Positions 6,001 through 32,249 of a stretch of DNA of 64,000 bases are shown here, in pieces. The stretch comes from Fidelibacterota bacterium (GTDB taxonomy: Bacteria; Fidelibacterota; Marinisomatia; SCGC-AAA003-L08; D37C17): NCBI GenBank assembly GCA_002717625.1, contig PBEF01000011.1, forward strand, positions 1 to 64,000, written 5' to 3'. A model generated the notes under the pieces. The model searched no databases. It was not told the DNA's origin and saw nothing but the letters and a program-made list of their open reading frames with translations. Each line of letters begins with the position of its first letter. Position 1 is the stretch's first letter. The position numbers and the translations under genes were made by a program.

Positions 6001-7629
6001 ACAACACTTAAGACCCCAAGTGTGATTCCTGAAGTTTTTAATATGAATGATATTTATAGTTATAGAACAGATATTACTCAAGTAGAGCCATCTTTTTATT
6101 TTATATGGAATAGAGATGAATTTCCCTATCAAACAGATGTCGATACAGATCCTACATTAAATGAAGTCCCATATGATTTGTTCTACCGTTTAGAGTTGGT
6201 TGAAAATGATAACGTTTATGTTATTAAAGACAATATAGAAGATGCTTCATTTACAGGAGATTATGCCTATGCACTTGCAGTTCTTCATCCTGATTCTTTA
6301 TACTCCCATTATGCTAATGGAGATTTATATATTCCAGGAGAGCATATAGCATCTATATCAGATCTTCCTGAAGATAATAAATCTAATCTTTTAAATTATA
6401 ATGGTGATGAATATGTATGGCGTGTAGTTGCACAAAATTATAGAGTTGAGTATAGTTATGATGAAGCTGCATGTGATGGTGAAAATGAACGTTGGCTAGA
6501 AGGAGATAACGGTCAGTATTGCGCTGAATTTGAAGATGAAAGTGTTATTTCTGTTAATCAATCAAATCCAATCAATATAGATATAAAACATACAGAAGGG
6601 GAGTTCCATTATACAATAAATCCACTTTATGTTGATTATTATGATATGTATTTTGTTCCTGATGATCAATGTGCTTTAAATCAATTTGGTTATGAGAATG
6701 AAGCATATGTTAATTATATCATTGATGCTGCAAGTTATACCATTGATGAAACTGAATCTATTAACTTGTTAGAAGATATAGATGGTTCATCATATGATCT
6801 TGGTACTGATATATTACATGCAAATGGTACTTTAGACTTTTTTGGAGGGGAGGATCCTTATATAACTTTACATACATTAGTTATTACTGTTGATCAACAT
6901 CAGAATGCTTATGTTAATATAGGTTCTTTTGTATATGCAGAAATTACTCCTGGAGAGGTTACTGTGATGAGCTCTCCATCTAATAATATTAGCGTTGAAT
7001 TTGATTCAGATACTTTTGATTCTGGTCGTACTACTATTATTATGTATGAAACTCCATATAATCTCACAGATCAATTATTAAAAAGCGATTATCGTATTGT
7101 ATCAGATTATTTGAATATTAAATCAAATAATTTTAACCTTAATTCAGATTTTTCAATTTATTTTAATCAAAATAGTATTATTGGAGATTATTATGATCTT
7201 GAAAAGATTAAAGTCAGTAAAGATGATGAACAGATTATTACATTTCCTAGTTATTTAGAAGATGATTATATTACAGCAAAAGTGAATCAATTTGGTAAAT
7301 ATATGCTAACTTATAATGTTAATCCTGCATCGGATGATATTGCTATCCCTCAAACTTTTGGAATAAAATCTTGCTATCCAAATCCATTTAATCCAAGTGT
7401 ATCAATAGATTATAGTTTAGAGAAAGATTCAAATGTAAGAGTATCAATATATAATATATTAGGACAAAAAATTAAAGAGATAGAAAATTCTTATAAAGTG
7501 GCAGGATCATATACGTCAATTTGGAATGGTCTTAATAATCAAGGCAGTCAAATGCCATCAGGCGTATATATAGTAGAAGTTAATAATAAAGAAGAAAAAT
7601 CAATTAAATTTGTAACACTATTAAAATGA
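1..7629 (+). CDS. Giant secreted repeat protein (tandem cadherin/Ig-like VND-[IAP]P repeats) with C-terminal T9SS type A-like sorting domain; 5' partial
   Basis: Frame 1 is open from base 1 (TITITVTDANDLPVFTS...). The track start at 40 is an internal GTG. Many ~100-aa repeats with 'NDAPV..DEDT..FDL..LTTDVDND.LTY' motifs. C-terminus YPNPFNPSVSIDYSLEKDSNVRVSIYNILGQKIKEI...SGVYIVEVNNKEEKSIKFVTLLK resembles a type A sorting domain. Confidence 0.9.
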   Translation, partial: TITITVTDANDLPVFTSVENIEFVEDEQNQESLTLNVTATDPDIDDTLVFACARVGQGEITCAVGNEDGDPTGASADIIFTAPADYYNKRENDPGYEIDAPETFTITVTDDSGVPVQQDMTVTVTSFNDAPVVVNNDPFYEMDEDTTFDVDLTLTTTDVDHDLADLTYTLVGDGPENGVIINNNDGTATYTPNQDFVGDNTFTYSVSDGDLSSETATITITVIGGEDAPVLTSPTEFSFDEDEEDEAERTIAVTATDIDQDDLAFSCSSSANITCVVNETEDGSGANVVLSTPQDWNGAETITITVTDVVNRGRGNDFEDVLVTVNPINDIPVVADMPDETTNEDVNLDIVLQGSDVDGDPLTYEIVADPVAEAGIITNNDDGTVTYTPAEDFSGELTFTYRANDGTEYSADPPATVTINVTDTNDPPVANDIFKVMNEGESITFDLLGTDVDGDPLTYEIVAPGPLDGEVVINEDGITATYTPDENHYGNEVFTYTANDGEFYSDPGEISIAIIPVNDPPLLDNIAHVTFNEDESIEITVSATDPEGDAITYGCTGLTNLQCVVDGDKITFSNFTEHYNQQFDSHLGLGFEIATITAVDANGIGGTDYEDSHQNIIVVAIPVNDDLTANEINLQTPEETVVTVDLYEHIINVDDIGEYIESVTYTLGNTSPTNGECTINGSILTYTPNDNFPDNNNASGNDVCSYRVLDNIYVSDDALVNIEVTPVNDAPITESSDATIDEDATADDVDNPAAVFDLSTLTTDADNDPLTYSILAAGSNGTCTLDGTIVTYVPNADYPDKNDPAEGENVDTCTFQANDGTAGDTADSNISTLTITVNPINDSPVTIDSEQIIHEGEIAIFDLLGLTTDVDQTDTFTFTLVDDAANGVCVIVDGTLTYTPNENYPNIDQLPGINTCTFYATDNMGEDNSDSNVSTLTITVEPINDAPVTENSEATINEDATVDDVDNPAPTFDLSTLTTDVDNDPLTYLLLTTGDNGTCTLDEDTGTIVTYVPNADYPHTNDASGVDTCTFQANDGTGEETADSNISTLTITVDPINDAPVTIDSEQTIDEDTVAIFDLNALTTDVDLTDTFTFALVDDAINGECVIVDGTLTYTPNENYPDTNDAPGVNTCTFYAIDNIGLDNSDNVSTLTITVDPVNDIPILDEPLTDCVGTDFCDMQVNDIEFFEDESATITVSATDADGDPLIYSCINDDHPEILCDITDNEIVISSVPNYYNTGSEYITIVVDDGQEGQDTQDVLVHVVLVNDDPVLLEIDPQEFFEDESVEFDIQATDGDPEDQLTFSCQNSDNVFCVVQDSGPFQNNPEQTPIQSSVVVTANQDFNGTEEIVVSVSDGHERILISLNVPITIVPVNDPPVTVDGEQIIDEDTTADFDLTTLTTDVDNDVLTDLTYTVVEQPLQGSCSIGEDGITLTYTPSPDYPFTNDPPPGEEICSFQASDNSLFTPDSNVSTLTITVNPINDAPVTVGSDQTINEDTVATFDLNTLTTDVDQTDTFTFTLVDNAINGTCVIENEILTYTPNQDYPGTNDDSGTDSCSFYATDNMNVETSDSNTSDLIITILPVNDPPVLDEPLTDCLESDFCDIDVNDVEFLEDESVTITVSATDADGDPITYLCNNDQHPDVLCSIDGDQLTISGSSNYYNDEGFDDEQPVFITVIADDGYEDGQDSKPIYVHVIPLNDPPVLSEIDEQQFLEDSTLEFEVSAFDPDPGDLLTFTCTGSDNILCDSIDAPQNSNAVDDIFSNLILTASPNFYGTETITVTVSDGDDEDSYTDTQPVVVTVIGVNDIPKIKPLSYTVDAQESLFENIDINSVTFDEGQEFTILFEVSEPDSLDSPDELLIAYENFGFVDPQSSNQNMNFDVCSFDTVDECSFIANSDNVDETDSNNRYRCTLLCHQNFNASFFGDFKVDDQMTEYDENDEAFNGMVAQLELNIKQINDLVNPIVLNENISMYWDDIPIEDLQGSISINSDIYLDQTKFFNNTTLKTPSVIPEVFNMNDIYSYRTDITQVEPSFYFIWNRDEFPYQTDVDTDPTLNEVPYDLFYRLELVENDNVYVIKDNIEDASFTGDYAYALAVLHPDSLYSHYANGDLYIPGEHIASISDLPEDNKSNLLNYNGDEYVWRVVAQNYRVEYSYDEAACDGENERWLEGDNGQYCAEFEDESVISVNQSNPINIDIKHTEGEFHYTINPLYVDYYDMYFVPDDQCALNQFGYENEAYVNYIIDAASYTIDETESINLLEDIDGSSYDLGTDILHANGTLDFFGGEDPYITLHTLVITVDQHQNAYVNIGSFVYAEITPGEVTVMSSPSNNISVEFDSDTFDSGRTTIIMYETPYNLTDQLLKSDYRIVSDYLNIKSNNFNLNSDFSIYFNQNSIIGDYYDLEKIKVSKDDEQIITFPSYLEDDYITAKVNQFGKYMLTYNVNPASDDIAIPQTFGIKSCYPNPFNPSVSIDYSLEKDSNVRVSIYNILGQKIKEIENSYKVAGSYTSIWNGLNNQGSQMPSGVYIVEVNNKEEKSIKFVTLLK

Positions 7630-8517: not shown

Positions 8518-9795
8518 ATGAGCATAATTATAGTTATGACTTTTTTATCAGTGATTTTATGTGCTGATACTAATGAACTTCCAATTGGTTTTACTGAAGG
8601 GGAGTTAAAAAATAAAAATTTAATTTATGATATGGGCACAAGGACTGATCCTCCTATTGGTCCAGTTCGTAATATAGCTGAATATGAGCCTATGCAGGGA
8701 GTTTTGATTAGATATCCATTTGGAATCTCTACTTCTTTGATAGCTTCAATGTCTGAAGATGTTATTATATATTGTTTAGTTTCTAATAATTTGCAAAACT
8801 CAGCATACAATTCAATGAATAATGGTGGCGTTAATATGAATAATGTAGAGTTTATATTAGGCTCTACAGATTCTTATTGGACTAGAGATTATGGTCCTTG
8901 GTGGGTTGTGGATGGTAATGGAGATGTTGGGGTAGTTGATTTTACTTATAATAGACCACGACCAAATGATAATCAAGCTCCATCAAAGGTAGCTAATCAT
9001 TTAAATGTCCCTTATTATTCTGCAGATTTTGTAAGCACTGGAGGAAATTATATGACTGATGGTTTTGGTATTGCAGCATCGACCCATATAGCATACACTG
9101 AACAAGATGAATGTAATACATCAAATGAATATAGTGTTCCTCTTCCAGGATGTTCTTATGTTGATGATATCTTAGAAGAATATTATGGTATAAATACTTA
9201 TCATGTGGTTGCTGATCCTAATAATGAATATATTGATCATATTGATTGTTGGGGAAAATTTTTATCACCAACTAAAATACTTATAAGAGAAGTTCCTATT
9301 AGTCATAGTCAATATGATGAGATTGAAGAAGTTGCAGATTATTTTTCATCAGTTCTAACATCAGAGGGGACACCTTGGGAAGTATTTAGAATAAATACTC
9401 CAAATGATCAACCATATACTAATTCTTTAATTTTAAATAATAAGGTTTATGTCCCTATTATGAACAGCTCTTGGGATGGTCCTGCATTAGAGGCTTATGA
9501 AGCTGCTATGCCAGATTATATTATCGAGCCGTTTACAGGATCTTGGCAACCAACAGATGCCCTTCATTGTAGGGTAAAAGGGATTCCAGATTTAACACCT
9601 ATGCCTCAATTTGATCTTGGTGATGTTAATATGGATAATCAAATTAATGTTTTAGATATTGTTAATGTAGTTAACTATGTACTTGGGCTAGTTGATTTTA
9701 CTACCTCACAATCCCAGTTATCTGATATGAATGAAGATGGAACAGTTAATATATTAGATATTATATCAATTGTAAATATTATTACAGGGAGTTAA
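8518..9795 (+). CDS. Secreted peptidylarginine/agmatine deiminase family protein with C-terminal dockerin-like repeats
   Basis: Motifs YWTRDYGPWW, HIDCWGKF (HxD) and ALHCRVKGIPD (catalytic Cys-like); N-terminal hydrophobic signal; C-terminal GDVNMDNQINVLDIVNVVNYVLG...DMNEDGTVNILDIISIVNIITG. Confidence 0.85.
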   Translation: MSIIIVMTFLSVILCADTNELPIGFTEGELKNKNLIYDMGTRTDPPIGPVRNIAEYEPMQGVLIRYPFGISTSLIASMSEDVIIYCLVSNNLQNSAYNSMNNGGVNMNNVEFILGSTDSYWTRDYGPWWVVDGNGDVGVVDFTYNRPRPNDNQAPSKVANHLNVPYYSADFVSTGGNYMTDGFGIAASTHIAYTEQDECNTSNEYSVPLPGCSYVDDILEEYYGINTYHVVADPNNEYIDHIDCWGKFLSPTKILIREVPISHSQYDEIEEVADYFSSVLTSEGTPWEVFRINTPNDQPYTNSLILNNKVYVPIMNSSWDGPALEAYEAAMPDYIIEPFTGSWQPTDALHCRVKGIPDLTPMPQFDLGDVNMDNQINVLDIVNVVNYVLGLVDFTTSQSQLSDMNEDGTVNILDIISIVNIITGS

Positions 9796-9800
9796 TTAAT

Positions 9801-12104
9801 ATGAATATAACTTTTTTTATATTATTTCTTTTATCATCTCTTTTTTCTAGGGATTTATATAAGGAAATTAGAATTGAAAATATTCCTTCATCTACTATTG
9901 CCTACTTGAATGTATTGGGTATAGATGTAGATCATATTCATCAAGAAGATGGTTTTATTCAATTTGCTATTTCAAGTCATGATTTAGATAAATTAGATTT
10001 TCATAATGTTAATTATCATGTTATACATGAAAATCTTGAAGAATTTTATGCGCAAAGATTAGATCCTGATTATGAAAGTCGAGATTTTGAACTAGGCTCA
10101 ATGGGGGGATATTATACATTCGATGAAATTGAAAATAGATTAAATGAAATACATGATCAATATCCTTCATTAACTCAATTAGAAGTAATAGGAAATACGC
10201 TAGAAGGTAGAAATATATGGGCTCTTAAGATCAGTGATAATGCATCTTCTTTTGAACAAGAGGAACCTGAAGTTTTATATACAGGTTTACATCATGCAAG
10301 AGAGCCAATGAGTTATATGAATTTATTTTATTTTATGGATTGGCTGTTTGAAAATTATAATGTGGATAATTTAGCTACACATTTAATTAATAATAGACAG
10401 TTATGGTTTATTCCTGCAATTAATCCTGATGGTTTAGTGTATAATCAACAAATTGCTCCAAATGGTGGGGGAATGCAAAGAAAGAATATGTTACCAACAT
10501 GTTCTGGTGGTGTTAATGGTGTTGATTTAAATAGAAATTACAGTTATATGTGGGCTTATGATAATGAAGGCTCTAGTCCTGATGGCTGTAGCGAAACATA
10601 TAGGGGGACTAGTCCTTTTTCAGAACCAGAAACACAGGTTGTTAGAGATTTTGTTCAATCACATAATTTCCCAATAGCTTTTAATTATCATAGCTATAGT
10701 AATTTGATGATTTATCCTTTAGGCTATGAGTATGATAATCCTATATCTGATGAAGATTTAGAAATATTTATAGAATATGGTGAAGATATGGTTCAGTATA
10801 ATGGATATGCATTAGGCTCTGGACCTGATTTGTTATATCCTGTAAATGGAGAAGCTTGTGATTGGATGTATGGAGCTGAAAATATTTTTGCTTATACTCC
10901 TGAGATAGGAGCTGGAAGTGATGGTTTTTGGCCATCTACAAGCAGAATAGTTCCTCTTGCTGAAGAAAATTTATATCCAAATCAATTTTTAGCACTTGTG
11001 GCTGGTTCAAAGTACAAGTTGAACATCAATGTTGATGAGGGTCCATATACTTCTGATAATGCTTATCCTTTATATATTTCTATATTGAATCAAGGTTTAA
11101 CTTCTTCAAATGGAGATGTATATGTGGATATTATTAGTTCAGATAATTTGTCTTTTGAATTAGAACAAATCACTTTAGATGGAGGATTAGGCGCAAGAGA
11201 GTTATTAGATTTAGGAGGAATTAGTTATTTTAGCGTTAATGCTGTACAAGGCTCTATTGCAGAAATTATAGTTAAGGTTTATGATGATGATGGATATATT
11301 TATGAAGAAAATCTACAGTTAATTGTAGGTGAAACTGAGGTTGTTGTAAATCAGGATTTTGAGGGCGGTAATAATTGGACTGTTGGATCTTTTGATGATA
11401 GTGCAACAGCTGGTATTTGGGAACTTGGCATCCCATTGGTTACATATGATGAACTGGGTAATGTTGTACAACCTTCTTCAGATCATACAGATGATGGAGT
11501 AAATTGTTTTTTTACTGGTAATTCAAGTAATCCGAATTCTCCTGGTCAAGGTGATGTTGATGGTGGGAAAACAACATTATTCTCTCCTGTATATAATCTG
11601 TCTGAATATTCTGGTGCTATAATTAGTTATTGGAAATGGTATACAAATAATCTAGGCAATAATCCTGGAACTGATACTTGGAGAGTTGATGTATCTGGTA
11701 ATAATGGTCAGGCTTGGATTGAATTAGAAAATTCAACTTCATCTAATAATTCTTGGCAATTTAAACAGTTTTATTTAAATGATTATATCAGTGATTTTAC
11801 ATCTGTTCAATTCAGATTTATTGCTGAGGATGTGTACAATGAAGGTGACTTCGGTTCTGGAGGGTCATTAATTGAAGCAGCAATTGATGATTTTATGATT
11901 CAAGTTTTTTCTAATACTGAATGTATGTTAGGAGATTTTAATCAAGATGCTGATGTAAATATTCAAGATATTATATTTATGATTAATGTAATATTAGGCC
12001 CTGTTGAAGAAATTGATAATTATTTGTGTTCCGGAGATTTCAATCAAGATGCTGCATTAAATATTCAGGATGTTATTCTTATTGTTAATTTTATTTTAGA
12101 TTAA
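9801..12104 (+). CDS. M14 family zinc carboxypeptidase with C-terminal dockerin-like repeats
   Basis: HHAREPMS (HxxE), NYHSYSNLMIYP (third zinc ligand) and YTPEIGAG (catalytic Glu); signal peptide; C-terminal GDFNQDADVNIQDIIFMINVILG...GDFNQDAALNIQDVILIVNFILD. Confidence 0.9.
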   Translation: MNITFFILFLLSSLFSRDLYKEIRIENIPSSTIAYLNVLGIDVDHIHQEDGFIQFAISSHDLDKLDFHNVNYHVIHENLEEFYAQRLDPDYESRDFELGSMGGYYTFDEIENRLNEIHDQYPSLTQLEVIGNTLEGRNIWALKISDNASSFEQEEPEVLYTGLHHAREPMSYMNLFYFMDWLFENYNVDNLATHLINNRQLWFIPAINPDGLVYNQQIAPNGGGMQRKNMLPTCSGGVNGVDLNRNYSYMWAYDNEGSSPDGCSETYRGTSPFSEPETQVVRDFVQSHNFPIAFNYHSYSNLMIYPLGYEYDNPISDEDLEIFIEYGEDMVQYNGYALGSGPDLLYPVNGEACDWMYGAENIFAYTPEIGAGSDGFWPSTSRIVPLAEENLYPNQFLALVAGSKYKLNINVDEGPYTSDNAYPLYISILNQGLTSSNGDVYVDIISSDNLSFELEQITLDGGLGARELLDLGGISYFSVNAVQGSIAEIIVKVYDDDGYIYEENLQLIVGETEVVVNQDFEGGNNWTVGSFDDSATAGIWELGIPLVTYDELGNVVQPSSDHTDDGVNCFFTGNSSNPNSPGQGDVDGGKTTLFSPVYNLSEYSGAIISYWKWYTNNLGNNPGTDTWRVDVSGNNGQAWIELENSTSSNNSWQFKQFYLNDYISDFTSVQFRFIAEDVYNEGDFGSGGSLIEAAIDDFMIQVFSNTECMLGDFNQDADVNIQDIIFMINVILGPVEEIDNYLCSGDFNQDAALNIQDVILIVNFILD

Positions 12105-20534: not shown

Positions 20535-21107
20535 ATGCTGAAAATGTTATATATATTATATTTTTCTTGTTTGATATCTCAGGGAATATATGCTGATAAA
20601 AAAGATCCTATTATTTATTCATTAAATATAAAATATAATTCTGAAGATAATTCTATATTAAATACTAGTGAAGATTATTGGAATGTTGGTTTATCTTCTG
20701 TTCTAAAAGGTATAAATGAATATGGCCTTAATTATCAAAAGAAAAAAGAATATAAATCATTTGAAACTTTTTATAATTATTATATTAAACCTGATTTTTA
20801 TTTAAAGATGTCTTATGGAATTTCATATATGTTTATAGATAAATATGATGATGGATCTAATATCAATCGTTATGGCACTAGGCTATCTTTTTATGGTGAT
20901 AATAAAAATAGTAAGGGTGATTTGAAATTTTACCCTATACTTAGTTATGAATATTTTTCCGATCAAGATGATAGTTATGATATTTTAACATTAGGTTTAT
21001 CTGTTTTATTTAATGATATTGGATTTGAACCATCACTATCATATATATCAGAAGATATTAAGGAATTTTCTGTTAAACTTTATTTGTGGGAGTTTAGTAC
21101 TTATTAA
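20535..21107 (+). CDS. Hypothetical exported protein, possible small outer-membrane beta-barrel
   Basis: The track start at 20499 lies inside the tRNA-Sec; a plausible start is ATG 20535 (MLKMLYILYFSCLISQGIYADKK, signal peptide). Alternating aromatic beta-strand-like sequence. Confidence 0.6.
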   Translation: MLKMLYILYFSCLISQGIYADKKDPIIYSLNIKYNSEDNSILNTSEDYWNVGLSSVLKGINEYGLNYQKKKEYKSFETFYNYYIKPDFYLKMSYGISYMFIDKYDDGSNINRYGTRLSFYGDNKNSKGDLKFYPILSYEYFSDQDDSYDILTLGLSVLFNDIGFEPSLSYISEDIKEFSVKLYLWEFSTY

Positions 21108-22582
21108 TGTCTATCCCCTAGTACAACATTGACTAATGTTACTACATCTAGTATATTGACAATTCCATCATTATTTAAATCTGCAGATCCAGTAGGCTCT
21201 GATGTTCCTAGTATTATATTAATACATGTAATAATATCAAGTATATTAATAATAGAATCATTATTAATATCACCACTTAAAGATGTACTATCAAATTGAT
21301 CATAAGTATATCTTTCTGCTCTAGCAATCATTGCCATATTGCTAGGATAATCATAGTCCCACACTTTTTCTCCAGAAGGAGTTACTTCAAAAATATATGA
21401 TTCTGTTGCTTCTGTTATAAGAGTATTTCCATTAGCTAATCTAAATGATCCGCCTTGAGCCATGGAGTTAAAGCCTCCTGTATATATCCATGTATAGCTA
21501 TCTGGTCCAAAAGGTTCATCGTCTTCTATAAAATAAGTTCCATCATTATTAATTGGTGTAATGATTTCAAGAACTGCAGCCGAATTATTAGTATGAAAAT
21601 TATTAAATAAAATAAGGTTCCCAGCACCAGGGTAACCTTCTGGTATCCAATTTACAGAATGTTGGTCTGCTAAAATGTGATTATTACTATTTCCTCTATC
21701 ATAGTTTTGAGGATTTCCCCATCGATATAAAAAATCTCCTCCCATACCATATAATCCACCAGAATGAGAAGCAGCTTCTTCCGTAGTTGTACTATGGTCA
21801 ATAATATATAGTTCATCTCGATGCCTAGATGAAAGTACAATTTGATCTAAATGTTCATTGTAGTGGACTGCATTAATATGCATCCAGTCTCCATGGGCTT
21901 GACCACCAGGACCTCCATTAGAACCAACATTTCCACAGTTAATATCCATAAGCTCAGGATGCTCTGATATTTGGCCATAAAAGGCATCATATTCAGGGCC
22001 TCTATCTTGAATTAAATGATCTTTAATAGACCATTCCCAAATAATATTAGCATCTCCAGTATTAAAATCAGGTTCAATTTCAAATATTATAGTAAACCAC
22101 ATTTGATTTAATGAATTATTTACTGATGTACGTCCTAAAGCACTCCATTCACTTGAATATGTTCTTTCCCATGCAAGAATTAGGAAATTTCCATTTGGTA
22201 ATGGTTCTATATCATGGTGATGTTGATAATCGTTATTAGATAAATCATATTGCCATAGTAAACTTCCTTCCCAGTTGTAAATTTCTACCCGACCTCCAAC
22301 GCCTCCATTTTGCATTGTAGGATTAGAAACTTGACATGGATAATAAAGTAGTGTATTCTCAAAGCCCGGTTCTTCACCAGGAACAAGATAAGGTAAACTT
22401 GCAGGCCCTGTAGAATGAGACCAGCTATTATAAATACTTCCATCGATATCTTTTAAATATGTTGTTGCACTTCCTCCTCCACCTGGAGTATAAAGAGTAT
22501 ATCCTGGAGAAGGCTCTTGCGCAAATAATATAGAAACTACAAAAATTAGTAAGTAGTTGAACATTTTACATTTATACTCCAA
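21104..22582 (-). CDS. Arylsulfotransferase (ASST)-like secreted protein with C-terminal dockerin-like repeats
   Basis: HHHDIEPLPNGNFLILAWER; GDWMHINAVHYNEHLDQIVLSSRHRDELYIIDHST; ADQHSVNWIPEGYPGAGNLILFNN; C-terminal SGDINNDSIINILDIITCINIILG...DLNNDGIVNILDVVTLVNVVLG. Confidence 0.8.
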   Translation of the reverse strand: MEYKCKMFNYLLIFVVSILFAQEPSPGYTLYTPGGGGSATTYLKDIDGSIYNSWSHSTGPASLPYLVPGEEPGFENTLLYYPCQVSNPTMQNGGVGGRVEIYNWEGSLLWQYDLSNNDYQHHHDIEPLPNGNFLILAWERTYSSEWSALGRTSVNNSLNQMWFTIIFEIEPDFNTGDANIIWEWSIKDHLIQDRGPEYDAFYGQISEHPELMDINCGNVGSNGGPGGQAHGDWMHINAVHYNEHLDQIVLSSRHRDELYIIDHSTTTEEAASHSGGLYGMGGDFLYRWGNPQNYDRGNSNNHILADQHSVNWIPEGYPGAGNLILFNNFHTNNSAAVLEIITPINNDGTYFIEDDEPFGPDSYTWIYTGGFNSMAQGGSFRLANGNTLITEATESYIFEVTPSGEKVWDYDYPSNMAMIARAERYTYDQFDSTSLSGDINNDSIINILDIITCINIILGTSEPTGSADLNNDGIVNILDVVTLVNVVLGDRH

Positions 22583-22708
22583 TTAGTTAATAAAATAATT
22601 ATTCATAAATTAGTCTTTAATATAGCGATTCAGAAAATAATAAATGTAATACTTTGTAAAGCGATGTATGTATATAAAGATATTATATATAAATTAACAT
22701 AGTCTATT

Positions 22709-23803
22709 ATGAAAATTTCAGTGATAAAGAGAATATTAAAAGTTTATTTTATAATGGGTAGAACATTTAGTACATGGATACCTTTTATTGTTTTACCTTT
22801 ATTATTATTACTATTAAGGTGTATTGTTGGATTTTTTATGATTCTTGATAATATTTTTTTTCCATCAATAATTAATCAGAAAATTAAAAGTCCAATTACT
22901 ATTGTTGGAAATCCTAGGTCAGGAACAACTTTTTTACATCGCTATTTAATTAAAAATAATATAGGCGCTGGTTCTCAATTATGGCAATTAATATATACGT
23001 CAGTTACTCTTCAAAAAATGATAAAGCCATTGTTGCCTATTCTAGAACGTTTTAGTCCTACAAAATATCATTCAACAGATGCACATAAAACAAGTTTAAT
23101 ATCAATAGAAACTGATGATGCTTCAATGCTTTTTCGTTTTTTTGATGGCTTTTTTTTATATGGCTTTTTTTTAACATGGTCAAAAGATGATTTGTTTGAT
23201 TGGGTAGATCCTAAAAAAAGAGATAATTCAATACGAGATTTTAATTGGTTTGAGTCTATGTGGAAAAGAACATTAACATTTCATAATAGTGATAGAATGA
23301 TTGCAAAACTTTTTTCTGTTAGTGCTAATGCTCCTGCATATCAAAGTAAGTTTAAAGATGGAAAAATTTTATATATGGTTAGAGATCCATTAAGTGTTAT
23401 TCCATCAGGTTTAAGTCTTGTTACTGGTGTATTGGATAAAAGTTTTAATTTTTGGTCAATGCCAATTGATTCTAGACAACGTTTTATAGAAAAATTATAT
23501 AGAGCTTTAATTGAACTATTACTCCGTTTTGAAGATGATTGGAGCAATGATAGAATAGATAAGAGTAGAGTGATGATTGTTAGATTTGATAGAATGATGT
23601 CAGATTTTGATGGCTTAATGAATGAAATATTAGATTTTATTGATTATGAACCATCAGAGGATTTTTTATCTAACATTAATAAGACAGCGGATGAGCAAAA
23701 GAATTTTAAAAGTGGACATAAGTATGATTTGAAAAAATTTGGTTTAACTGAAGAAAGGATTAAAGCTGATTGCTCTGTTATATATACTACATTTTTAAAT
23801 TAA
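22709..23803 (+). CDS. PAPS-dependent-type sulfotransferase family protein
   Basis: ITIVGNPRSGTTFLHRYL (5'-PSB loop type motif); YMVRDPLSVIPSG; VMIVRFDRMMSDFDGLMNEILDFI. Confidence 0.8.
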   Translation: MKISVIKRILKVYFIMGRTFSTWIPFIVLPLLLLLLRCIVGFFMILDNIFFPSIINQKIKSPITIVGNPRSGTTFLHRYLIKNNIGAGSQLWQLIYTSVTLQKMIKPLLPILERFSPTKYHSTDAHKTSLISIETDDASMLFRFFDGFFLYGFFLTWSKDDLFDWVDPKKRDNSIRDFNWFESMWKRTLTFHNSDRMIAKLFSVSANAPAYQSKFKDGKILYMVRDPLSVIPSGLSLVTGVLDKSFNFWSMPIDSRQRFIEKLYRALIELLLRFEDDWSNDRIDKSRVMIVRFDRMMSDFDGLMNEILDFIDYEPSEDFLSNINKTADEQKNFKSGHKYDLKKFGLTEERIKADCSVIYTTFLN

Positions 23804-23809
23804 TTATTA

Positions 23810-24384
23810 TGAATAAATATATTATAGCATTATTTCTAAATTGTTTTTTGTTTGCTGATATTAATTGGCAAATATTGAAAGATAAAGAAATCTTAATAAA
23901 AGTATTTAAACAAGACTATCCTCAATGTAGAGCTGAAATTACTATTAATCATCCAATAGATGTAGTCTTGGATGTGATTGAGGATGTAGAAAATTATAAA
24001 TATTTTTTTACTTCAATAGTAATATCAGATATTAATGACTCTAATGACGTCCGATTAGCAATTAATATGCCTTTTCCTTTCTCAGATAGAGATTATACTG
24101 TTAAATTTAAGCCTGTAAAAGATGATGGGAAAGTAAGCTATCTATATGAACCTATTATTACAGAAGAATTTCCTGAATCTAAAGATTATATACGTTTAGT
24201 TGATGCAAGAGGAGGTTGGACTTTAATGTCTTTAGATAATAAAAATACTTTAGTTAGGTATGAATGGAATGGTGATATGAGAGGAGACTTCCCTAAATGG
24301 GCTTATAGCCAAGCATGGGTTAGGCAAGGTACAGAAATAATGTTAGATTTAAAAAAAGAAATAAACAAAAGGAATCCTGAATGA
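23810..24384 (+). CDS. START/polyketide-cyclase-like lipid-binding domain protein, exported
   Basis: Likely start ATG 23810 (MNKYIIALFLNCFLFADINWQ signal); CRAEITINHPIDVVLDVIEDVENYKYFFTSIV...PFPFSDRDYTVKF; ARGGWTLMSL. Confidence 0.7.
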
Positions 24385-25979
24385 AAATATATAATTATTT
24401 ATTAGCATTAGTTTTTAGTATAGCAATAATCATTCCAGCTTCAACTAATATTAGTGGACAAGCGGAATATTTTTATATGGTTACATTAAAAGATATAAAG
24501 TTAGTTAATATTCCATTTAGATTATTAAATCTTGATGTTCAGCATCAAGTAAGCGATAATTTTAATGTTTTTGGAAATTTAGGTGTTGAATATAGAAATA
24601 GAAGAGATACAGATTTTATGACAGACTCTAATTTAGAAGATTTTTTATTAGATATTAGAGAATTATATATGTCTTATTATTTTAATAATAGTGAAATTAG
24701 AATAGGTAAACAGGTTCATAGTTGGGGTAGTGTAGATGAAAATAGTCCTATTGATAATTTAAATGGATATGATTATTATTATTTATTACTAGGAGGATCA
24801 GAAAAAAAATTAGGAGCATATTCTCTTGCGTATGATGTTGAAACTGATTATTTCTACGACTTATTAGGAGCTACTCATAAAATATCTTTTGTTTATTCTC
24901 CAATGCATAATACTAATAGAATTCCTGTGAATGATCCAGATTATCCTATAGGTTTGCCTTCTGGTTCATCTCCTACAGAAGAAACTACTATTTTGAATGA
25001 TAATAATCCAGCAGAGTATGGCCTTAATATTAAATCATCTTTTAATTTTGGAGATATTTCACTTTCATATTTAGGTTTATATGATAGACTATTTAATTTA
25101 TCAGGTTTAACAATATATACAGATGAAGCTTTTACAGGTGGCGTAGTTGAGCCTGTCCCAAGATATTCTTATAGATATACAGACGTATATGCTTTAGGTG
25201 CTATGTTATTATTTGATGACTTTACCTTTAGTTTTGATTATGCTTTATTTGAGTCAAATGATACGAATGATTTGGATACTTTTAATAATTTGGAAGAAAA
25301 TCCTTATTATATAAGCTCTCCTGAGGATGATGTTTTTGGCGCTCCTGCTTTATGGATAGAACAAACACGTGCATTTGAAGAAAAGGTTAAATATTCACAA
25401 CTTGCAGTTCAGTTTGAGATGCCATTTGAAAATAACCTGAGAGTGAATAGTCAGTATTTTAAACATGAAATTATAGAATATAGTTCTAATCCATTAGGAT
25501 TAAGTTGTCTGACTTTAGCTGGATATGATAGTGATGGTGATGGTTCTTCTACAACACCTAATTGGCATCCTAATTGGGATGGTGGTGATATTCCTGGTCC
25601 ATTACCTTTATTTACTCCTGCAGATTGTGAGGATTTAGAATCTGGTTTAGGTATGACATTGGATGATTTTGAGCCGCAAAATCTTTTTATTCCAGGTGTT
25701 GGAACTCCTTATGCTATGATAACATCAGAAGGAATGTTAATTAATATTGAGAAGGCTTTTCCAGATAAAAGCTTAACTGTTGATATTAATGGATTTTTTG
25801 ATGCTGCTAATGGTGATGGTAGGCTAATATCTTTAGAAACAGAGTATGAACTTGAAAGTGGTGTAGAACTTGGATTTGGGATTACAAAGATTTATGGAGA
25901 TGATACGATGGAAAATTATAATTTTAATAATATGGAATCATTTTCTTCATTTAGATCAAGATTAACTTACTATTTTTAA
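24381..25979 (+). CDS. Outer-membrane beta-barrel protein (DUF1302/alginate-export-like)
   Basis: ELYMSYYFNNSEIRIGKQVHSWGSVDENSPIDNLN; alternating beta-strand pattern; C-terminal FRSRLTYYF. Confidence 0.65.
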   Translation: MKIYNYLLALVFSIAIIIPASTNISGQAEYFYMVTLKDIKLVNIPFRLLNLDVQHQVSDNFNVFGNLGVEYRNRRDTDFMTDSNLEDFLLDIRELYMSYYFNNSEIRIGKQVHSWGSVDENSPIDNLNGYDYYYLLLGGSEKKLGAYSLAYDVETDYFYDLLGATHKISFVYSPMHNTNRIPVNDPDYPIGLPSGSSPTEETTILNDNNPAEYGLNIKSSFNFGDISLSYLGLYDRLFNLSGLTIYTDEAFTGGVVEPVPRYSYRYTDVYALGAMLLFDDFTFSFDYALFESNDTNDLDTFNNLEENPYYISSPEDDVFGAPALWIEQTRAFEEKVKYSQLAVQFEMPFENNLRVNSQYFKHEIIEYSSNPLGLSCLTLAGYDSDGDGSSTTPNWHPNWDGGDIPGPLPLFTPADCEDLESGLGMTLDDFEPQNLFIPGVGTPYAMITSEGMLINIEKAFPDKSLTVDINGFFDAANGDGRLISLETEYELESGVELGFGITKIYGDDTMENYNFNNMESFSSFRSRLTYYF

Positions 25980-26956
25980 TGTCTAAAGTAATATCATGTT
26001 TTAAGATTACGGGATATGGTAGTTATCTTCCACCTAATATTCAAACATCTAAAGATTTATCTAAAATTATAGATAAAACAGAAGATTGGATTATTAATCA
26101 TACAGGTGTTTATGAAAGAAGAGTTTCTGATATAGATGTTGATCAAATGGGAGCTATTGCTGCGAAAGAGGCAATAGGGAATAAAGAAAAGCCAGATTTA
26201 ATTATTAATGCTTCAGGTGTTCCCAAACAAACACTACCTGATACATCTGTTTTTATACAAAAAGAGTTAGGCTTTAATTCTATCCCATCATTTAGCATCC
26301 ATAGTACATGTCTGTCTTTTATTGTGGCTTTAAATTCTGCAGCAGCGTTATTACAAACAAATTTATATAAAAAAATATTAATTGTTTCATCAGATAGAGG
26401 AACGAGAGGACGAAATTTTGATGAACCTGAAAGTTCTTCTTTATTAGGAGATGCAGCTGCAGCAATATATTTAGAAAAGTCTAATGATAAAAATAATGGT
26501 ATTATAAGTTATAATATGAATACTTATCCTGATGGTGCTTTATTAACCGAAGTAAGAGGCGGTGGAACACATTTGCATCCTCAAGATACAGGAACTAAAA
26601 AATCTGATAATTTGTTTTCTATGAATGGTCCTCAAGTATATAGGATGGCAAGAAAGAAAGTTTATGATTTAATTAAGAAAGACTTAGAAAAAAATAATTT
26701 AGAAACAACTGATATAAATCTAGTAATTCCACATCAAGCATCTGGAATGGCTGTTAAAGCTTATTCTAAATATGGAGGGTTTAATGTAAATAATGTTGTA
26801 GATATTATTGATAAAACAGGTAACTGTGTTGCGGCATCTATTCCTTTGGCTTTGGTATTAGCTTATAAAGATAATAGGATTAAACAAGGAGATTTACTTT
26901 ATTTGGTTGGTACTGGGGCAGGGCTGTCTATAGCATCATGTATTATAAGAATATAA
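25979..26956 (+). CDS. 3-oxoacyl-ACP synthase III (KAS III/FabH) family protein
   Basis: IHSTCLSFIVALN (Cys), IPHQASGMAVKA (His) and DKTGNCVAASIP (Asn) form the KAS III triad. Confidence 0.88.
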   Translation: MSKVISCFKITGYGSYLPPNIQTSKDLSKIIDKTEDWIINHTGVYERRVSDIDVDQMGAIAAKEAIGNKEKPDLIINASGVPKQTLPDTSVFIQKELGFNSIPSFSIHSTCLSFIVALNSAAALLQTNLYKKILIVSSDRGTRGRNFDEPESSSLLGDAAAAIYLEKSNDKNNGIISYNMNTYPDGALLTEVRGGGTHLHPQDTGTKKSDNLFSMNGPQVYRMARKKVYDLIKKDLEKNNLETTDINLVIPHQASGMAVKAYSKYGGFNVNNVVDIIDKTGNCVAASIPLALVLAYKDNRIKQGDLLYLVGTGAGLSIASCIIRI

Positions 26957-26959
26957 TTT

Positions 26960-29824
26960 CTAGATTCCAGTTCCAAGAATTGTATTAACAAGAGCAACAA
27001 TATCAATTACATTTAAGATTCCATCAGCATTAACATCATGAGAACATAATTGTTCATCTGTTATTTCTTCTCCTGATAAAATTGTATTAACAAGAGAAAT
27101 AATATCAATTACATTTATAACCCCATCCATGTTAACATCCATTTGTCCTCCACATTCACAGTCTTGTTCAACTGTGATTAAAAATGAATAATACAGAGGG
27201 TCGATCGAAGTATTAATATTTTCACTATTAGCTACGCAAGAAGGTAATTCTCCGCATAGCATATTACCGCCTGAGCCAAAATAGGGAAGAAAATTATAAT
27301 CAAGTCCATTCCAATTTAAATCTAGATTACAAATAGATTCAGGTAGCTCTGATAAATTATTATTAAATATCCATAAATAATTTATTAGACTAAACTCTCC
27401 AATACTTTCAGGAATTGACTCTAAGCTATTATATCCAAGATCTAACCAAATCATATTACTTAGATTTCCAATATTTTCAGGAAGGTGTGTTAATTGATTA
27501 AACGAAAGAACTAAATAAATTAAATTTGTAAGATTTGTTATACTATCAGGAAGAGATGTTAACTCATTGTAATTAAAATATAGTATAGCAATATTAGGTA
27601 AGTCCCCAATAGATTCAGGTAGGTTTGTTAAAGTAACATTCCCGCCATCGTAAAAATTTCCTATTGTTAATCTTGTTAGATGTCCGTTGAACCAATTTTG
27701 AGTTCCAATTTCAATCGGATTAATATCAAGGCTGTTAATTGTTATAATATCTTGTAATACAGATAAATCAATATTGCTGAAACATTGGCTTTGATCAAGC
27801 ACAATGGTAGAGCTTGGAAGATCATTTAGTTCAAAATAAGTAAAATTGTCTTCACATTGTCCTGTGGATGAACAATCGTTTTCATTGCATACGAATGTTC
27901 CATCATTACATTCAAATTCGGGACCAGAGCCTTCACACTCACCGCACTCATCTAACGCTGCATTACCACCACATTCACCAGAACAGTCTAGTATATTTCC
28001 ATCACAATCACATTCCCCTATATTAATATAAGTACAAGAATTATCCTCTTCTGTTGCTTGAGGATTATAGTTGCATGCCTCTATATCCATACATCCTTGT
28101 ATTTGATTTGATGATTCACCTATGTATACTGTAATTTCTTTAGATAAATCTTGTCTATGTATAGGAATAATTTCAATTTCAACTACATTGGTATTTATTG
28201 CAATAGGCATATTTAGATATGCAATTTGATTAGGCTCAAGGTGTATATTCTCATCGATTAATGGAATGTAGAAAGTTTCATCTCTTGAACCATTATTATG
28301 CAATTGTATAGCACAGGTATTATCTACAGTAATATTACCATTTTCTCCAATATACATATTTTCAACAATAACGCTAAAAGCTACAGGATGCAAGCCTGGT
28401 AATCTATTAGCTCGATATACAGCTCCATTTGGAAAAGATAAATTGTAATTTGCCTCCCAAATTATTTCATTGTTATCGGGATTTACTTCTATACTCGTTC
28501 CACCATCTCCAACGGTTGTAATTAAGTAATTGCCATTATTAAGTTTTTGTATATTTCCTGATGCAAATCCAAATAAAGACTCTGGTAAGTCATAATCCCA
28601 TACTATAGTAGCATCACATGAATTATCTGATTCATCAACTTGAATTTCAAGTCCTCTTGATGTAGGGTAGTCTGTATCATTAAGGGTCGTACTCAGATTT
28701 CCATTATCAAAAGTAATAAGATTTCCATTATCTAATTGCATTATACTATGTTGGAAAGAAAACCCTAATTCTTGCCCGCAATCAACATCTCCTGATGGCA
28801 TTGCAAGCCCCATATTCCATATAACGTCACCTGTAGTATAATCAATTTTTGTAATTCTTGATAAATGCCGTACTGAAAAATATATTGCATTTTCTTGCTC
28901 AGAAAACCAAAATGCATTAGCATGTGTCCAATCAAATCTTCCATCATTAAATGCAGCTGCCCATGTTCCAGCAATATAATCATAATCAAGTTGACTGTAA
29001 TAATCAAAAGTATTCCAACTCCATACTTCATTTCCATCAGCATCCCACTCGACAATTCTATCTCCAACCCATGGGAATTCTGAGGTAAATCCATCTACAG
29101 TATAGCCTAAAAATTGGAATAAAAGAGATAGGTTGTCAGGTAAATTTGTAGGGATAGGGCCAAGTCTTATATCTTCTACTATTGACATATAATTTCCATT
29201 TGGAAGCTGAATCATTTCATGGTGAGCAAAATGTTCGTTTGGTTCTTGAAATATTATAGTATTATCAATATTAAATTCAATAGCAGGAAGATTGTTCTGT
29301 AAGGTGTAATCATATTGTGCTCCAAATAATTGACCGTAATAATCAGTATTATAAAAAATTAAATTTTCATTTTGAGAATTCCAAATTTCATTTCCATCTT
29401 TATCTATAGCAGCGCTATAGTAATCTAAAAATGAGCTAAAGATTGTAATCTCATTTCCTGTATAAGAGCCTGTTACTGATACATTTGACCTTGAATCACT
29501 TATACTAAAAGATAAATATGTATTACCATCAGAGTCTTGCATAGAGCCCTGAGATCCATCTTCAAATATTGGTGTTACATACCATGAATATGATGTATTC
29601 CAATTAAAAAAAGTATTATTTATATAGATTAAAGATTCAACATTTTCATTTATATATTCTCCAGTTGATTCATCATAAATAGTTACTGTATAGTTTATAG
29701 CATCTGGCACCTGTTCCCATTCAAATTTAACATGTGTAGTATGTAGTGTTACTCCATTCTCAGGTGATAGTAAATCTGCAAATGACATTGATAATAATAA
29801 AATTGATATAAGATATTTTTTCAT
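26960..29824 (-). CDS. ASST-like secreted protein fused to a Cys-rich segment, leucine-rich repeats and dockerin-like C-terminus
   Basis: True start probably MKKYLISILLLSMSFA at 29824. EHFAHHEMIQLPNGNYMSIVED...LGFSFQHSIMQLDNGNLITFDNGN; GCMDIEACNYNPQATEEDNSCTYI; LRRs LPESIGDLPNIAILYFNYNELTSLPDSITNLTNLIYLVLS; C-terminal DVNMDGVINVIDIISLVNTILS...HDVNADGILNVIDIVALVNTILG. Confidence 0.8.
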   Translation of the reverse strand: MKKYLISILLLSMSFADLLSPENGVTLHTTHVKFEWEQVPDAINYTVTIYDESTGEYINENVESLIYINNTFFNWNTSYSWYVTPIFEDGSQGSMQDSDGNTYLSFSISDSRSNVSVTGSYTGNEITIFSSFLDYYSAAIDKDGNEIWNSQNENLIFYNTDYYGQLFGAQYDYTLQNNLPAIEFNIDNTIIFQEPNEHFAHHEMIQLPNGNYMSIVEDIRLGPIPTNLPDNLSLLFQFLGYTVDGFTSEFPWVGDRIVEWDADGNEVWSWNTFDYYSQLDYDYIAGTWAAAFNDGRFDWTHANAFWFSEQENAIYFSVRHLSRITKIDYTTGDVIWNMGLAMPSGDVDCGQELGFSFQHSIMQLDNGNLITFDNGNLSTTLNDTDYPTSRGLEIQVDESDNSCDATIVWDYDLPESLFGFASGNIQKLNNGNYLITTVGDGGTSIEVNPDNNEIIWEANYNLSFPNGAVYRANRLPGLHPVAFSVIVENMYIGENGNITVDNTCAIQLHNNGSRDETFYIPLIDENIHLEPNQIAYLNMPIAINTNVVEIEIIPIHRQDLSKEITVYIGESSNQIQGCMDIEACNYNPQATEEDNSCTYINIGECDCDGNILDCSGECGGNAALDECGECEGSGPEFECNDGTFVCNENDCSSTGQCEDNFTYFELNDLPSSTIVLDQSQCFSNIDLSVLQDIITINSLDINPIEIGTQNWFNGHLTRLTIGNFYDGGNVTLTNLPESIGDLPNIAILYFNYNELTSLPDSITNLTNLIYLVLSFNQLTHLPENIGNLSNMIWLDLGYNSLESIPESIGEFSLINYLWIFNNNLSELPESICNLDLNWNGLDYNFLPYFGSGGNMLCGELPSCVANSENINTSIDPLYYSFLITVEQDCECGGQMDVNMDGVINVIDIISLVNTILSGEEITDEQLCSHDVNADGILNVIDIVALVNTILGTGI

Positions 29825-29832
29825 AATAATTC

Positions 29833-30609
29833 CTAACTGCAATCTACTAAAAATTCAGGATTTAATAAATTAGCTTTATTATACATTAGTTCATTTTTAC
29901 TATTTAAATCATAAATATTTCCACCTGCATATTTAACTACAGCATGAGCTGCAGCAGTATCCCATTCCATAGTAGGGCCAAGACGCGGATAAATATGAGC
30001 TGAGCCATCTGCAACTAGACATATTTTAATAGAACTTCCCATTTTGACAAGTTCATGATTTGGATAGCCCTTTAAAAATACATTTAATTTTGGATTATTA
30101 GCATGAGATCTAGATGTTACAACTTTGACAGTATCATTTGGAATAATCACATTAATTTTATTAGCAGATTCATTTTTTGATATTTTATATGAACCTTGAT
30201 TAATTAATCCATACCATACAGTATTAAGAACAGGAGCATAAACAACCCCTAATATTGGAGTCCCTTGTGATATAAGGGCAATATTCACTGTGAATTCTCC
30301 ATTCTTTTTAATGAACTCTTTAGTCCCATCAAGAGGATCTATTAACCAAAACATATTCCATTTTTCTCGTTCATTATAGTCTATGCTTTTTCCCTCTTCA
30401 GATAAAATGGGAATATCAGGTGTAATTTTTTTAAGTGAATGTTCAATAACATCATTAGATGCTTTATCTGCAAGTGTAAGAGGTGTTTTATCATCTTTAT
30501 ACGTTACTCCTAAATCTTTATTTTGATAGATCTTTAATATTGCATTTCCAGCTTCTCTAGAAATAGCTAAAATATTATCACACAGTATTTTATAGTTTAA
30601 AGATTCCAT
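29833..30609 (-). CDS. cysQ: 3'(2'),5'-bisphosphate nucleotidase (CysQ)
   Basis: LSEEGKSIDY; WLIDPLDGTKEFIKKNGEFTVNIALI; MEWDTAAAHAVVKYAGG inositol-monophosphatase-family motifs. Confidence 0.9.
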   Translation of the reverse strand: MESLNYKILCDNILAISREAGNAILKIYQNKDLGVTYKDDKTPLTLADKASNDVIEHSLKKITPDIPILSEEGKSIDYNEREKWNMFWLIDPLDGTKEFIKKNGEFTVNIALISQGTPILGVVYAPVLNTVWYGLINQGSYKISKNESANKINVIIPNDTVKVVTSRSHANNPKLNVFLKGYPNHELVKMGSSIKICLVADGSAHIYPRLGPTMEWDTAAAHAVVKYAGGNIYDLNSKNELMYNKANLLNPEFLVDCS

Positions 30610-32249
30610 TATTTAACAAATCCTTTTTGTTCTAAATAAAGCATAACCTCCTGCACAGCTTGTTCAGGAGAAATATCTGTAGTATCAATATTTATCTCTG
30701 ATGTTCTAGGTTCTTCAAAAGGGTCATCTATTCCTGTGAATCCTTTTAGAACTCCAGCTCTTGCTTTAGCATATAAACCTTTAACATCTCGCCTTTCACA
30801 CTCGGATAAAGGTGTTGAAACATAAACTTGGATATATGTTCCACATTGATTAATTAAAGCCCTATTAAATTGTCTTGAATCTTGAAATGGAGCAATTGGT
30901 GCACAAATAGCAATCCCCCCGTTCTTTGTGATTTCGCTTGCTACATAACCTATTCTTTTAACATTAATTTCTCTATGTTCTTTAGAAAAACCAAGTTCAC
31001 TAGATAAATGTGTCCTTACAATGTCTCCATCAAGTAAAGTAACTCTTCTATTTCCATGTTCAAGTAGTTTCACTAAAAGTCCATTAGCAATTGTTGATTT
31101 TCCAGATCCTGATAAACCAGAGAAAAATACTGTAAAGCCTTGTTTGTTTATTGGTGGATATACTTTGTGTAGTTCATCTACAATATCAGGGTAAGAAAAC
31201 CATTCAGGGATTTCTTGATTGTTCTCTAATCGATGTCTAAGATCAGATCCTGATATAAATAGTGTTTTATATTCTTTTGGAACCTTGTCAATCTCCATAT
31301 AGTCATCGATATCTTGTACATAAACCATCATTTTGAATGGAACCATTTTAATACCTATATCTTTTTCATGTTTTGCTACAAGTTCTTGAGCCTCATATGG
31401 ATCATAATAAGGATTACCATCTTTATCAGATCCTGGTCCTGCATGATCTCTCCCAATGATTATATGAGTACATCCATAATTTTTTCTTATAAGTGCATGC
31501 CAGAGTGCTTCCCTTGGACCGGCCATTCTCATTGCAAGTGGTAGTAAACTAAGCATTGTAGTTCCCTCTGGAAAATATTTTAAAATTTTCTGATAACATC
31601 TAACTCTTGTATAATGGTCAATATCTCCTGGTTTAGTAGGTCCTACAACAGGATGTAATAATAAATTTGCGCCATTTTCTTTTGCTGCTCTAAAAGAAAT
31701 TTCTTTATGGGCACGATGCATTGGATTTCTAGTTTGAAATGCAACGACTTTGTCCCAACCCATTTTTTTAAACTGAGTTTTTAATTCTTCAGGAGTATGA
31801 CGTAAAAGTTGATAATCATAATGCTTAGGAAGTTCAGATAATTCTAATTGCCCTCCTATATAATAGTCTTGAATGTGATTGTATAGGTAGTTAACACCAG
31901 GATGATTCTCATCTGTTGTTTTATATATCGATTTGGCTTCTTTTGTTTTATCAGGCTTCCAAATATCTGTAATATTTAAAATAGCAACTAGAAACCCTTC
32001 ATGGTCTCTTAGTGCAATCCTAGAACCAGATTTCAAATCATTATTCTCTTTAGTTTCTTTGTTTATATCAAGTATAATTGGAATGGGCCATAATTCACCA
32101 TTTGATAAACACATATTATCTAGAACAGAATCATAATCTTTTTTTGTCATGAATCCATCTAGGGGATTAAATGCTCCATTTAAAAGAAGTTCTAAATCAC
32201 AAATTTGTCTTTCATTTAAAACAAAATTATATAAATTTACATCTGACAT
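30609..32249 (-). CDS. Bifunctional sulfate adenylyltransferase / adenylylsulfate kinase
   Basis: FQTRNPMHRAHKEI and IIGRDHAGPG (Sat); FFSGLSGSGKSTIANGLL and LDGDIVRTHLSSELGFSKEHREINVKRIGYVA (CysC). Confidence 0.94.
   Translation of the reverse strand: MSDVNLYNFVLNERQICDLELLLNGAFNPLDGFMTKKDYDSVLDNMCLSNGELWPIPIILDINKETKENNDLKSGSRIALRDHEGFLVAILNITDIWKPDKTKEAKSIYKTTDENHPGVNYLYNHIQDYYIGGQLELSELPKHYDYQLLRHTPEELKTQFKKMGWDKVVAFQTRNPMHRAHKEISFRAAKENGANLLLHPVVGPTKPGDIDHYTRVRCYQKILKYFPEGTTMLSLLPLAMRMAGPREALWHALIRKNYGCTHIIIGRDHAGPGSDKDGNPYYDPYEAQELVAKHEKDIGIKMVPFKMMVYVQDIDDYMEIDKVPKEYKTLFISGSDLRHRLENNQEIPEWFSYPDIVDELHKVYPPINKQGFTVFFSGLSGSGKSTIANGLLVKLLEHGNRRVTLLDGDIVRTHLSSELGFSKEHREINVKRIGYVASEITKNGGIAICAPIAPFQDSRQFNRALINQCGTYIQVYVSTPLSECERRDVKGLYAKARAGVLKGFTGIDDPFEEPRTSEINIDTTDISPEQAVQEVMLYLEQKGFVK

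Follow-up and report, generated by a model that had tools for sequence, protein, structure and literature searches.

A conserved sulfotransferase and arylsulfate sulfotransferase gene cluster in Candidatus Neomarinimicrobiota and a proposed sulfate relay to the cell surface

Gene Content and Organization of the Sulfation Locus

The window analyzed here is a 64,000-nucleotide stretch of a Fidelibacterota genome (assembly GCA_002717625.1, contig PBEF01000011.1, positions 1 to 64,000), in which eight genes between positions 21104 and 32249 form a candidate sulfation locus. An earlier note, made from the letters of the sequence, had named these genes and proposed that they serve a dedicated sulfation function. 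All eight were checked by coordinates and against Pfam and NCBIfam profiles; each lies where the note had placed it, and the family profiles agree with the names:

21104..22582, minus strand: ASST1, secreted arylsulfate sulfotransferase (ASST)-like beta-propeller with a C-terminal dockerin-type repeat (PF05935, 73.8 bits; PF14269; PF00404)
22709..23803, plus strand: ST, sulfotransferase of the type dependent on 3'-phosphoadenosine 5'-phosphosulfate (PAPS), with a hydrophobic N-terminal segment at approximately residues 24-53 (PF13469, 56.4 bits; PF00685, 35.1 bits)
23809..24384, plus strand: START-like lipid-binding protein with an N-terminal signal-like segment; start at ATG 23809 (listed open reading frame start, TTG 23770)
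24381..25979, plus strand: OMP, predicted porin-like outer-membrane beta-barrel protein, no Pfam family, C-terminus ...LTYYF
25979..26956, plus strand: KAS III, beta-ketoacyl-ACP synthase III of an MxnB/CorB-like clade (PF08541/PF08545)
26960..29842, minus strand: ASST2, ASST domain with a leucine-rich repeat (LRR) segment and a dockerin-type tail (PF05935, 94.4 bits; LRR; PF00404); start at ATG 29824 or TTG 29842
29833..30609, minus strand: CysQ, 3'(2'),5'-bisphosphate nucleotidase, which clears 3'-phosphoadenosine 5'-phosphate (PAP) (TIGR01331, 298.7 bits, cut-off 228.8)
30609..32249, minus strand: Sat-CysC fusion of ATP sulfurylase and adenosine 5'-phosphosulfate (APS) kinase, which makes PAPS (NF004040, 878 bits, cut-off 669)

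ASST1 and ST are divergent, with a 126-base gap between them. Downstream of ST, OMP starts 4 bases inside the START-like gene and KAS III starts at the last base of OMP, and on the opposite strand Sat-CysC overlaps CysQ by one base. Judging from this spacing, the locus is likely made up of two operons, ST-START-OMP-KAS III and Sat-CysC > CysQ > ASST2, the latter because CysQ and ASST2 also overlap or nearly touch.

Conservation of the Cluster in Related Genomes

Orthologs of ST, defined by scores of >300 bits, were obtained from 50 of 151 related genomes, and 40 neighborhoods from Ca. Neomarinimicrobiota relatives, in which ST was 53-72% identical to that of the window, were fetched and their genes mapped. 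A core of ASST1, ST-START-OMP-KAS III and ASST2 recurred in these 40 neighborhoods: the START-like gene was directly downstream of ST in 40/40 loci, OMP was present in 39 (the contig breaks off in the remaining locus), and ASST1 was divergent beside ST in 38. ASST2 and KAS III shift place but remain in the cluster, ASST2 lying between the START-like gene and OMP in several genera of family f13 and KAS III being inverted in family f4. The core gene order holds in six or more families of the class and, because the proteins are only 50-70% identical, does not merely reflect recent ancestry; the grouping of the cluster genes is far beyond chance. The earlier note had allowed that the neighbors might not be conserved in relatives; contrary to that possibility they are. 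The pattern seen by the note is real and extends further than it reported.

ASST copy number differed sharply with the presence of ST. The genome that contains the window has one ST ortholog and five ASST matches, and every ST genome (50/50) has at least two ASST matches, with a mean of 4.1 vs. 0.38 in ST-negative genomes; ASSTs were also found in 24 relatives without an ST ortholog.

Active Sites and Possible Surface Targeting of the ASSTs

ASSTs are PAPS-independent and move sulfate between phenol-like compounds via a histidine; in the Escherichia coli enzyme, the active site consists of His252, His356, Asn358, Arg374, Thr501, and the sulfated His436 (PMC13426309). Both ASSTs of the window scored far above the PF05935 cut-off of 24.2 bits, and the propeller fold was supported by Foldseek: the nearest PDB fold to the AlphaFold model of ASST1 (predicted local distance difference test, pLDDT, 83) was Cpz4 (9kf6; E 1e-14, TM-score 0.54), followed by E. 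coli ASST. Cpz4 (9kf6) was also the nearest solved relative of the ASST2 profile (E 2e-15), with the Cpz4 His, Asn, Arg, and catalytic His aligned. The motifs HHHD, DWxHxN, SSR, and QH were invariant in the aligned sequences of the ASST1 family, the motifs HH[DE], DWTHxN, SxRH, and QH were likewise kept in the ASST2 family, and the two profiles aligned these motifs on each other. With the His column kept in the family, the cluster contains an ASST-family protein with the catalytic His (His308 in ASST1, His365 in ASST2), as in the caprazamycin cluster described below.

In most relatives, ASST2 is split into separate ASST and LRR genes, each with a type A tail of the type IX secretion system (T9SS), in place of the fusion seen in the window. 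The LRR protein is probably a partner of ASST2, because it recurs beside it in 29 loci. The T9SS type A tail profile TIGR04183 was over its cut-off in the ASST2 relatives of loci L061, L042, and L048, and the T9SS component SprA is present in the genome of the window, where ASST2 itself ends in a dockerin-type repeat. Such C-terminal repeats were observed on four window proteins (21104-22582, 26960-29842, 8518-9795, and 9801-12104), with relatives of ASST2 bearing T9SS tails instead, and may be an alternative surface-anchoring tail in this genus.

The Sulfotransferase and Candidate Export Proteins

The 5'-phosphosulfate loop of ST, GNPRSGTT, and its 3'-phosphate motif, R225..S233, were kept across 24 orthologs; with PF13469 also over its cut-off, the cluster is predicted to include a PAPS-dependent sulfotransferase, again as in the caprazamycin cluster. 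The START-like protein matched PF03364 only weakly, below the Pfam cut-off, and a profile of 29 orthologs had as its best match a STAR-related lipid transfer protein (3qsz, E 1.6e-8); its N-terminus was judged signal-like by inspection. The AlphaFold model of OMP was all-beta (pLDDT 80), with the porins OmpT, MOMP, and OmpF as the nearest PDB folds (E ~7e-11), and the distant relatives of its profile were DUF1302 proteins. In many relatives, homologs of an MMPL transporter and a LolA-like protein lie directly beside the ASST1 end of the cluster. The START-like protein, the barrel and, in relatives, these MMPL/LolA-like neighbors would together provide a path between the inner membrane and the surface, within which a role of OMP in lipid export is a guess. 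In the genome of the window (G000), a LolA-like gene (PF17131) adjoins an MMPL transporter gene (PF03176) on contig C10 (L156:8185-11244).

A Ketosynthase Related to Alpha-Pyrone Synthases

The earlier note had counted KAS III among lipid-type genes; the family assignment stands, but the protein is no ordinary FabH. The best PDB matches of its profile were MxnB (4v2p, 249 bits) and CorB (4yuc, 247 bits), which form the alpha-pyrone of myxopyronin and of corallopyronin (PMC5724707, PMC4578411), with every FabH at or below 205 bits, and the protein fell under the curated FabH cut-offs (TIGR00747, 215 vs. 292 bits; NF006829, 228 vs. 249). The genome also encodes another, distinct KAS III. The Cys111-His252-Asn282 triad was invariant, and the cluster KAS III shares with MxnB/CorB a CLSF motif around the catalytic Cys and a GGG(T/S)xxxP..DN segment that the aligned FabHs lack, and also an RGGG motif. 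The position of Glu105 in PpyS is Ile or Leu in cluster members (Val in one distant member) and Val in MxnB/CorB (PMC4578411); an OleA/PpyS-type ketosynthase was set aside, as the catalytic Glu is replaced by Ile/Leu. Phylogenetic analysis of 39 sequences grouped the cluster KAS III with MxnB/CorB against six FabH-type sequences with support of 100/100, on a midpoint-rooted tree with a long-branch warning. On this relatedness, the proposed product would be an enolic lipid, most likely an alpha-pyrone or a related beta-diketo lipid.

The KAS III search of the 151 genomes was bimodal: 37 genomes had a member of the cluster clade, scoring at least 377 bits, and no other KAS III scored above 172 bits. 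ST was present in 35 of these 37 (Fisher p 5e-20, uncorrected for shared ancestry), including seven genomes in which the two genes are on different contigs. In f13 genomes, the left flanks of the cluster (L041, L049, L051, L060) carry a beta-oxidation set, consisting of a 3-hydroxyacyl-CoA dehydrogenase/enoyl-CoA hydratase (3HCDH/ECH) fusion, a thiolase, and an acyl-CoA dehydrogenase, which could feed beta-ketoacyl substrates to the ketosynthase.

Occurrence in Other Phyla

One scan of named genomes recovered ST orthologs with 47-56% identity from Ignavibacteria, KSB1, Myxococcota, Deltaproteobacteria, and others. KAS III adjoined ST in 13 of ~32 loci from other phyla, a gene pair seen in Ignavibacteria, KSB1, and Myxococcota. 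Two Ignavibacteria loci had the order ASST-ASST-KAS III-ST-CysC-ASST-ASST-ASST-ASST, and in two KSB1 loci KAS III-ST lay among four to six ASSTs, with no CysC in view. Sampled ASST copies from other phyla were confirmed as PF05935 by Pfam and carried full or marginal T9SS tails, and both catalytic histidines were kept in 22 of the 23 ASST copies of these arrays. One ASST-family protein of an Ignavibacteria array (L150:3988-6378) has Asn at both catalytic-His positions and is probably inactive.

PAPS Supply and the Absence of Assimilatory Genes

The earlier note saw no reductive sulfate assimilation genes in the window and proposed a check of the whole genome. Targeted profile searches of the genome (1.49 Mb, 89.7% complete), on which all genome-wide statements here rest, found neither CysH/APS reductase nor sulfite reductase (PF01077); the one PF01507 match was rejected as CysH, the protein being TilS-like. 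PF00884 sulfatases were also not found in this genome, and a sulfatase-linked salvage reading was dropped on that account. Sulfite reductase was missing in 24 of the 28 relatives that have both an ST ortholog and APS kinase. In a genome of the same family (G012), sulfite reductase shares contig C30 with a CysNC-size protein, and Sat-CysC and CysQ lie together on C3. Sat-CysC and CysQ are thus an adjacent pair away from sulfite reductase, contrary to the possibility, raised by the note, that they sit with assimilatory genes elsewhere. With genes for making PAPS, using it, and clearing PAP next to lipid-type functions, the locus is better read as dedicated to sulfation than to assimilation, as the note had proposed.

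The PAPS-supply genes were nonetheless the least conserved part of the neighborhood. They join the cluster in several genera, as Sat-CysC plus CysQ in family f1 and as Sat-CysC alone in the f13 genus g36. CysQ exceeded its curated cut-off only in f1, where it mostly adjoins Sat-CysC even when the pair is off the ST cluster (G012, G016, G022). APS kinase does not track ST (28/50 ST-positive vs. 50/101 ST-negative genomes, p 0.28), so the argument that PAPS genes travel with ST fails outside f1, g36, and Ignavibacteria.

A Proposed Sulfate Relay and Alternative Explanations

The pyrones of caprazamycin biosynthesis come from the type III polyketide synthase (PKS) Cpz6. These triketide pyrones are sulfated by the PAPS-dependent enzyme Cpz8 and then serve as donors for the ASST Cpz4 (PMC4257720). 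The locus holds the corresponding parts, with another ketosynthase, and each of them independently points to this two-step precedent. We give slightly better than an even chance to a two-stage sulfate (sulfuryl) relay from the cytoplasm to the cell surface, in which the product of ST would be the natural donor for the ASSTs. On strong family assignments, Sat-CysC would make PAPS and CysQ would remove PAP. KAS III, judged by its relatedness to MxnB/CorB, would condense acyl chains into the enolic lipid proposed above, and the membrane-associated ST, with its PAPS-site motifs in place, would move sulfate from PAPS onto an enol- or phenol-like hydroxyl of that lipid. The START-like protein would ferry the sulfated lipid over the periplasm and OMP would bring it to or through the outer membrane, possibly helped in relatives by the MMPL/LolA-like proteins. 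The surface ASSTs, in which the active-site residues are present, would then load the sulfate on the catalytic His and transfer it to acceptors outside the cell, for example glycans, lipids, or proteins of the surface.

A broader form of this relay, to which we give a little less than an even chance, is a carrier system found in several phyla, whereby a pyrone-like lipid enol would be sulfated inside the cell and exported as a high-energy donor for families of surface ASSTs. Such a carrier could be likened to undecaprenyl-linked sugars, which serve glycosylation beyond the cytoplasm, where there are no nucleotide donors.

Several observations weigh against the relay. Neither APS kinase nor ATP sulfurylase was found in the bins of 21 of the 50 ST genomes, six of them >90% complete; both were missing in all three genomes of genus g9 (G010, G014, G018), and likewise from the ST-positive genomes G077, G093, G023, and G006, in which the PAPS motifs are intact. 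ST-positive lineages of genera g39 and g46 likewise seem to be without PAPS genes. Gaps in draft genomes cannot easily explain all of these cases. The KAS III clade was missing in 15 of the 50 ST genomes, mainly in genera g24 and g29 of family f8 and in family f17, and the acceptor lipid may for this reason come from another enzyme there; a search for a different pyrone- or phenol-forming enzyme in the neighborhoods of genera without KAS III found no PKS, the neighbors being beta-oxidation, phosphate transport, MMPL, LolA-like, and TetR genes. The KAS III tree has few outgroups as well as its long-branch warning, OMP resembles general porins, and many Myxococcota and Deltaproteobacteria loci, in which gene calls are poor (high GC), showed no ASST up to 9 kb from ST.

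The earlier note had read the locus as PAPS-centered and devoted to making a sulfated lipid or surface metabolite. It was right on the dedicated sulfation function but probably wrong on the purpose of the sulfated lipid, since the locus is not simply PAPS-centered and the lipid fits less well as an end product than as a donor for ASSTs, which do not use PAPS and are present in all ST genomes. If the lipid were the end product, KAS III and ST would build a surface sulfolipid for export by the START-like protein and OMP, and the ASSTs would either remodel it or stay by operon history. The hydrophobic N-terminus of ST, the START-like protein, OMP, and the MMPL/LolA-like neighbors do suit lipid export, and the adp cluster of Streptomyces unites a PAPS cassette, a lipid-forming PKS, and a sulfotransferase (PMC12135136); we nevertheless consider this explanation unlikely, because it explains neither why ASSTs with intact active sites are constantly present, often four to six around one ST, nor why the locus matches both Cpz4 and the pyrone synthases. 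More doubtful still is a scheme in which the ASSTs draw sulfate from, or exchange it with, phenolic sulfates of seawater, independently of an ST that makes a separate sulfated metabolite. Known ASSTs do accept many exogenous donors (PMC13426309), relatives with ASSTs but no ST ortholog exist, and some ST genomes lack PAPS genes, but the tight clustering is kept in several phyla and multi-copy ASSTs are near absent from ST-negative genomes.

An inward relay, by which surface ASSTs would load the lipid from environmental esters and the imported lipid would serve a reversed ST to form PAPS, would accommodate the 21 ST genomes in which the PAPS-site motifs of ST are intact although no PAPS synthesis was found. 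It is very improbable, given that most ST genomes lack a cytoplasmic PAPS user such as sulfite reductase and that the operonic arrangement of Sat-CysC and CysQ with ASST2 in the window points outward. Hardly credible at all is an accidental neighborhood in which Sat-CysC and CysQ belong to ordinary assimilatory sulfate reduction. All three functions (Sat, CysC, and CysQ) are classic for that pathway, but CysH and sulfite reductase were not found in this genome, sulfite reductase is missing in most relatives that have ST and APS kinase, and Sat-CysC adjoins the cluster in g36 as well, as does CysC beside ST in Ignavibacteria.

Comparison With Known Systems

Like the caprazamycin cluster (Cpz6/Cpz8/Cpz4; Cpz4 structures 9kf4/9kf6), the locus unites a ketosynthase-type enzyme for an enolic or phenolic acceptor, a PAPS sulfotransferase, and an ASST. 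It differs in that the ketosynthase is a KAS III (PF08541/PF08545) of MxnB/CorB type rather than a type III PKS, that at least two ASSTs accompany each ST and would be surface-targeted in a Gram-negative cell, that START-like and OMP genes and its own PAPS genes are included, that it spans several phyla, and that the acceptor, as far as seen, is not a liponucleoside antibiotic. The KAS III resembles MxnB and CorB in its catalytic triad (Cys-His-Asn), in its CLSF and RGGG motifs, and in having an aliphatic residue at V94/E105, but lies outside an antibiotic PKS cluster and is set apart by a long branch. With the ASST of E. coli CFT073 (3elq, 3ets), the window ASSTs share PF05935, the beta-propeller fold, and the active-site His, Asn, Arg, and transferable-sulfate His; the E. 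coli enzyme is periplasmic with no linked ST or ketosynthase reported in a recent review (PMC13426309), whereas a candidate donor pathway is genetically linked here. The adp cluster of Streptomyces davaonensis (AdpST) similarly combines a lipid-type polyketide, a PAPS sulfotransferase, and a dedicated PAPS cassette, but has a type III PKS instead of KAS III, yields a sulfated alkylresorcinol, and is presented with no ASST step (PMC12135136).

A 2026 review notes that, with Cpz4 as the exception, little is known about what bacterial ASSTs act on in nature or what they do for the cell (PMC13426309). The locus links ASSTs to one particular candidate pathway for a donor and, if the relay is correct, would supply the long-missing natural sulfate donor of these enzymes. 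It likewise hints at a way for a Gram-negative cell to place sulfate on its surface although no PAPS is available beyond the cytoplasm. The marine phylum has few cultured members, with one isolate, Fidelibacter multiformis (PMC11652737), and the library searched held no paper describing the cluster and nothing relevant on sulfotransferases or ASSTs in Marinimicrobia.

Other Genes in the Window

Positions 40-7629 encode a 2529-residue protein with repeated Ig/cadherin-like domains and a T9SS tail, and the dockerin-tailed product of 8518-9795 is a secreted peptidyl-arginine deiminase-like protein (PF04371).

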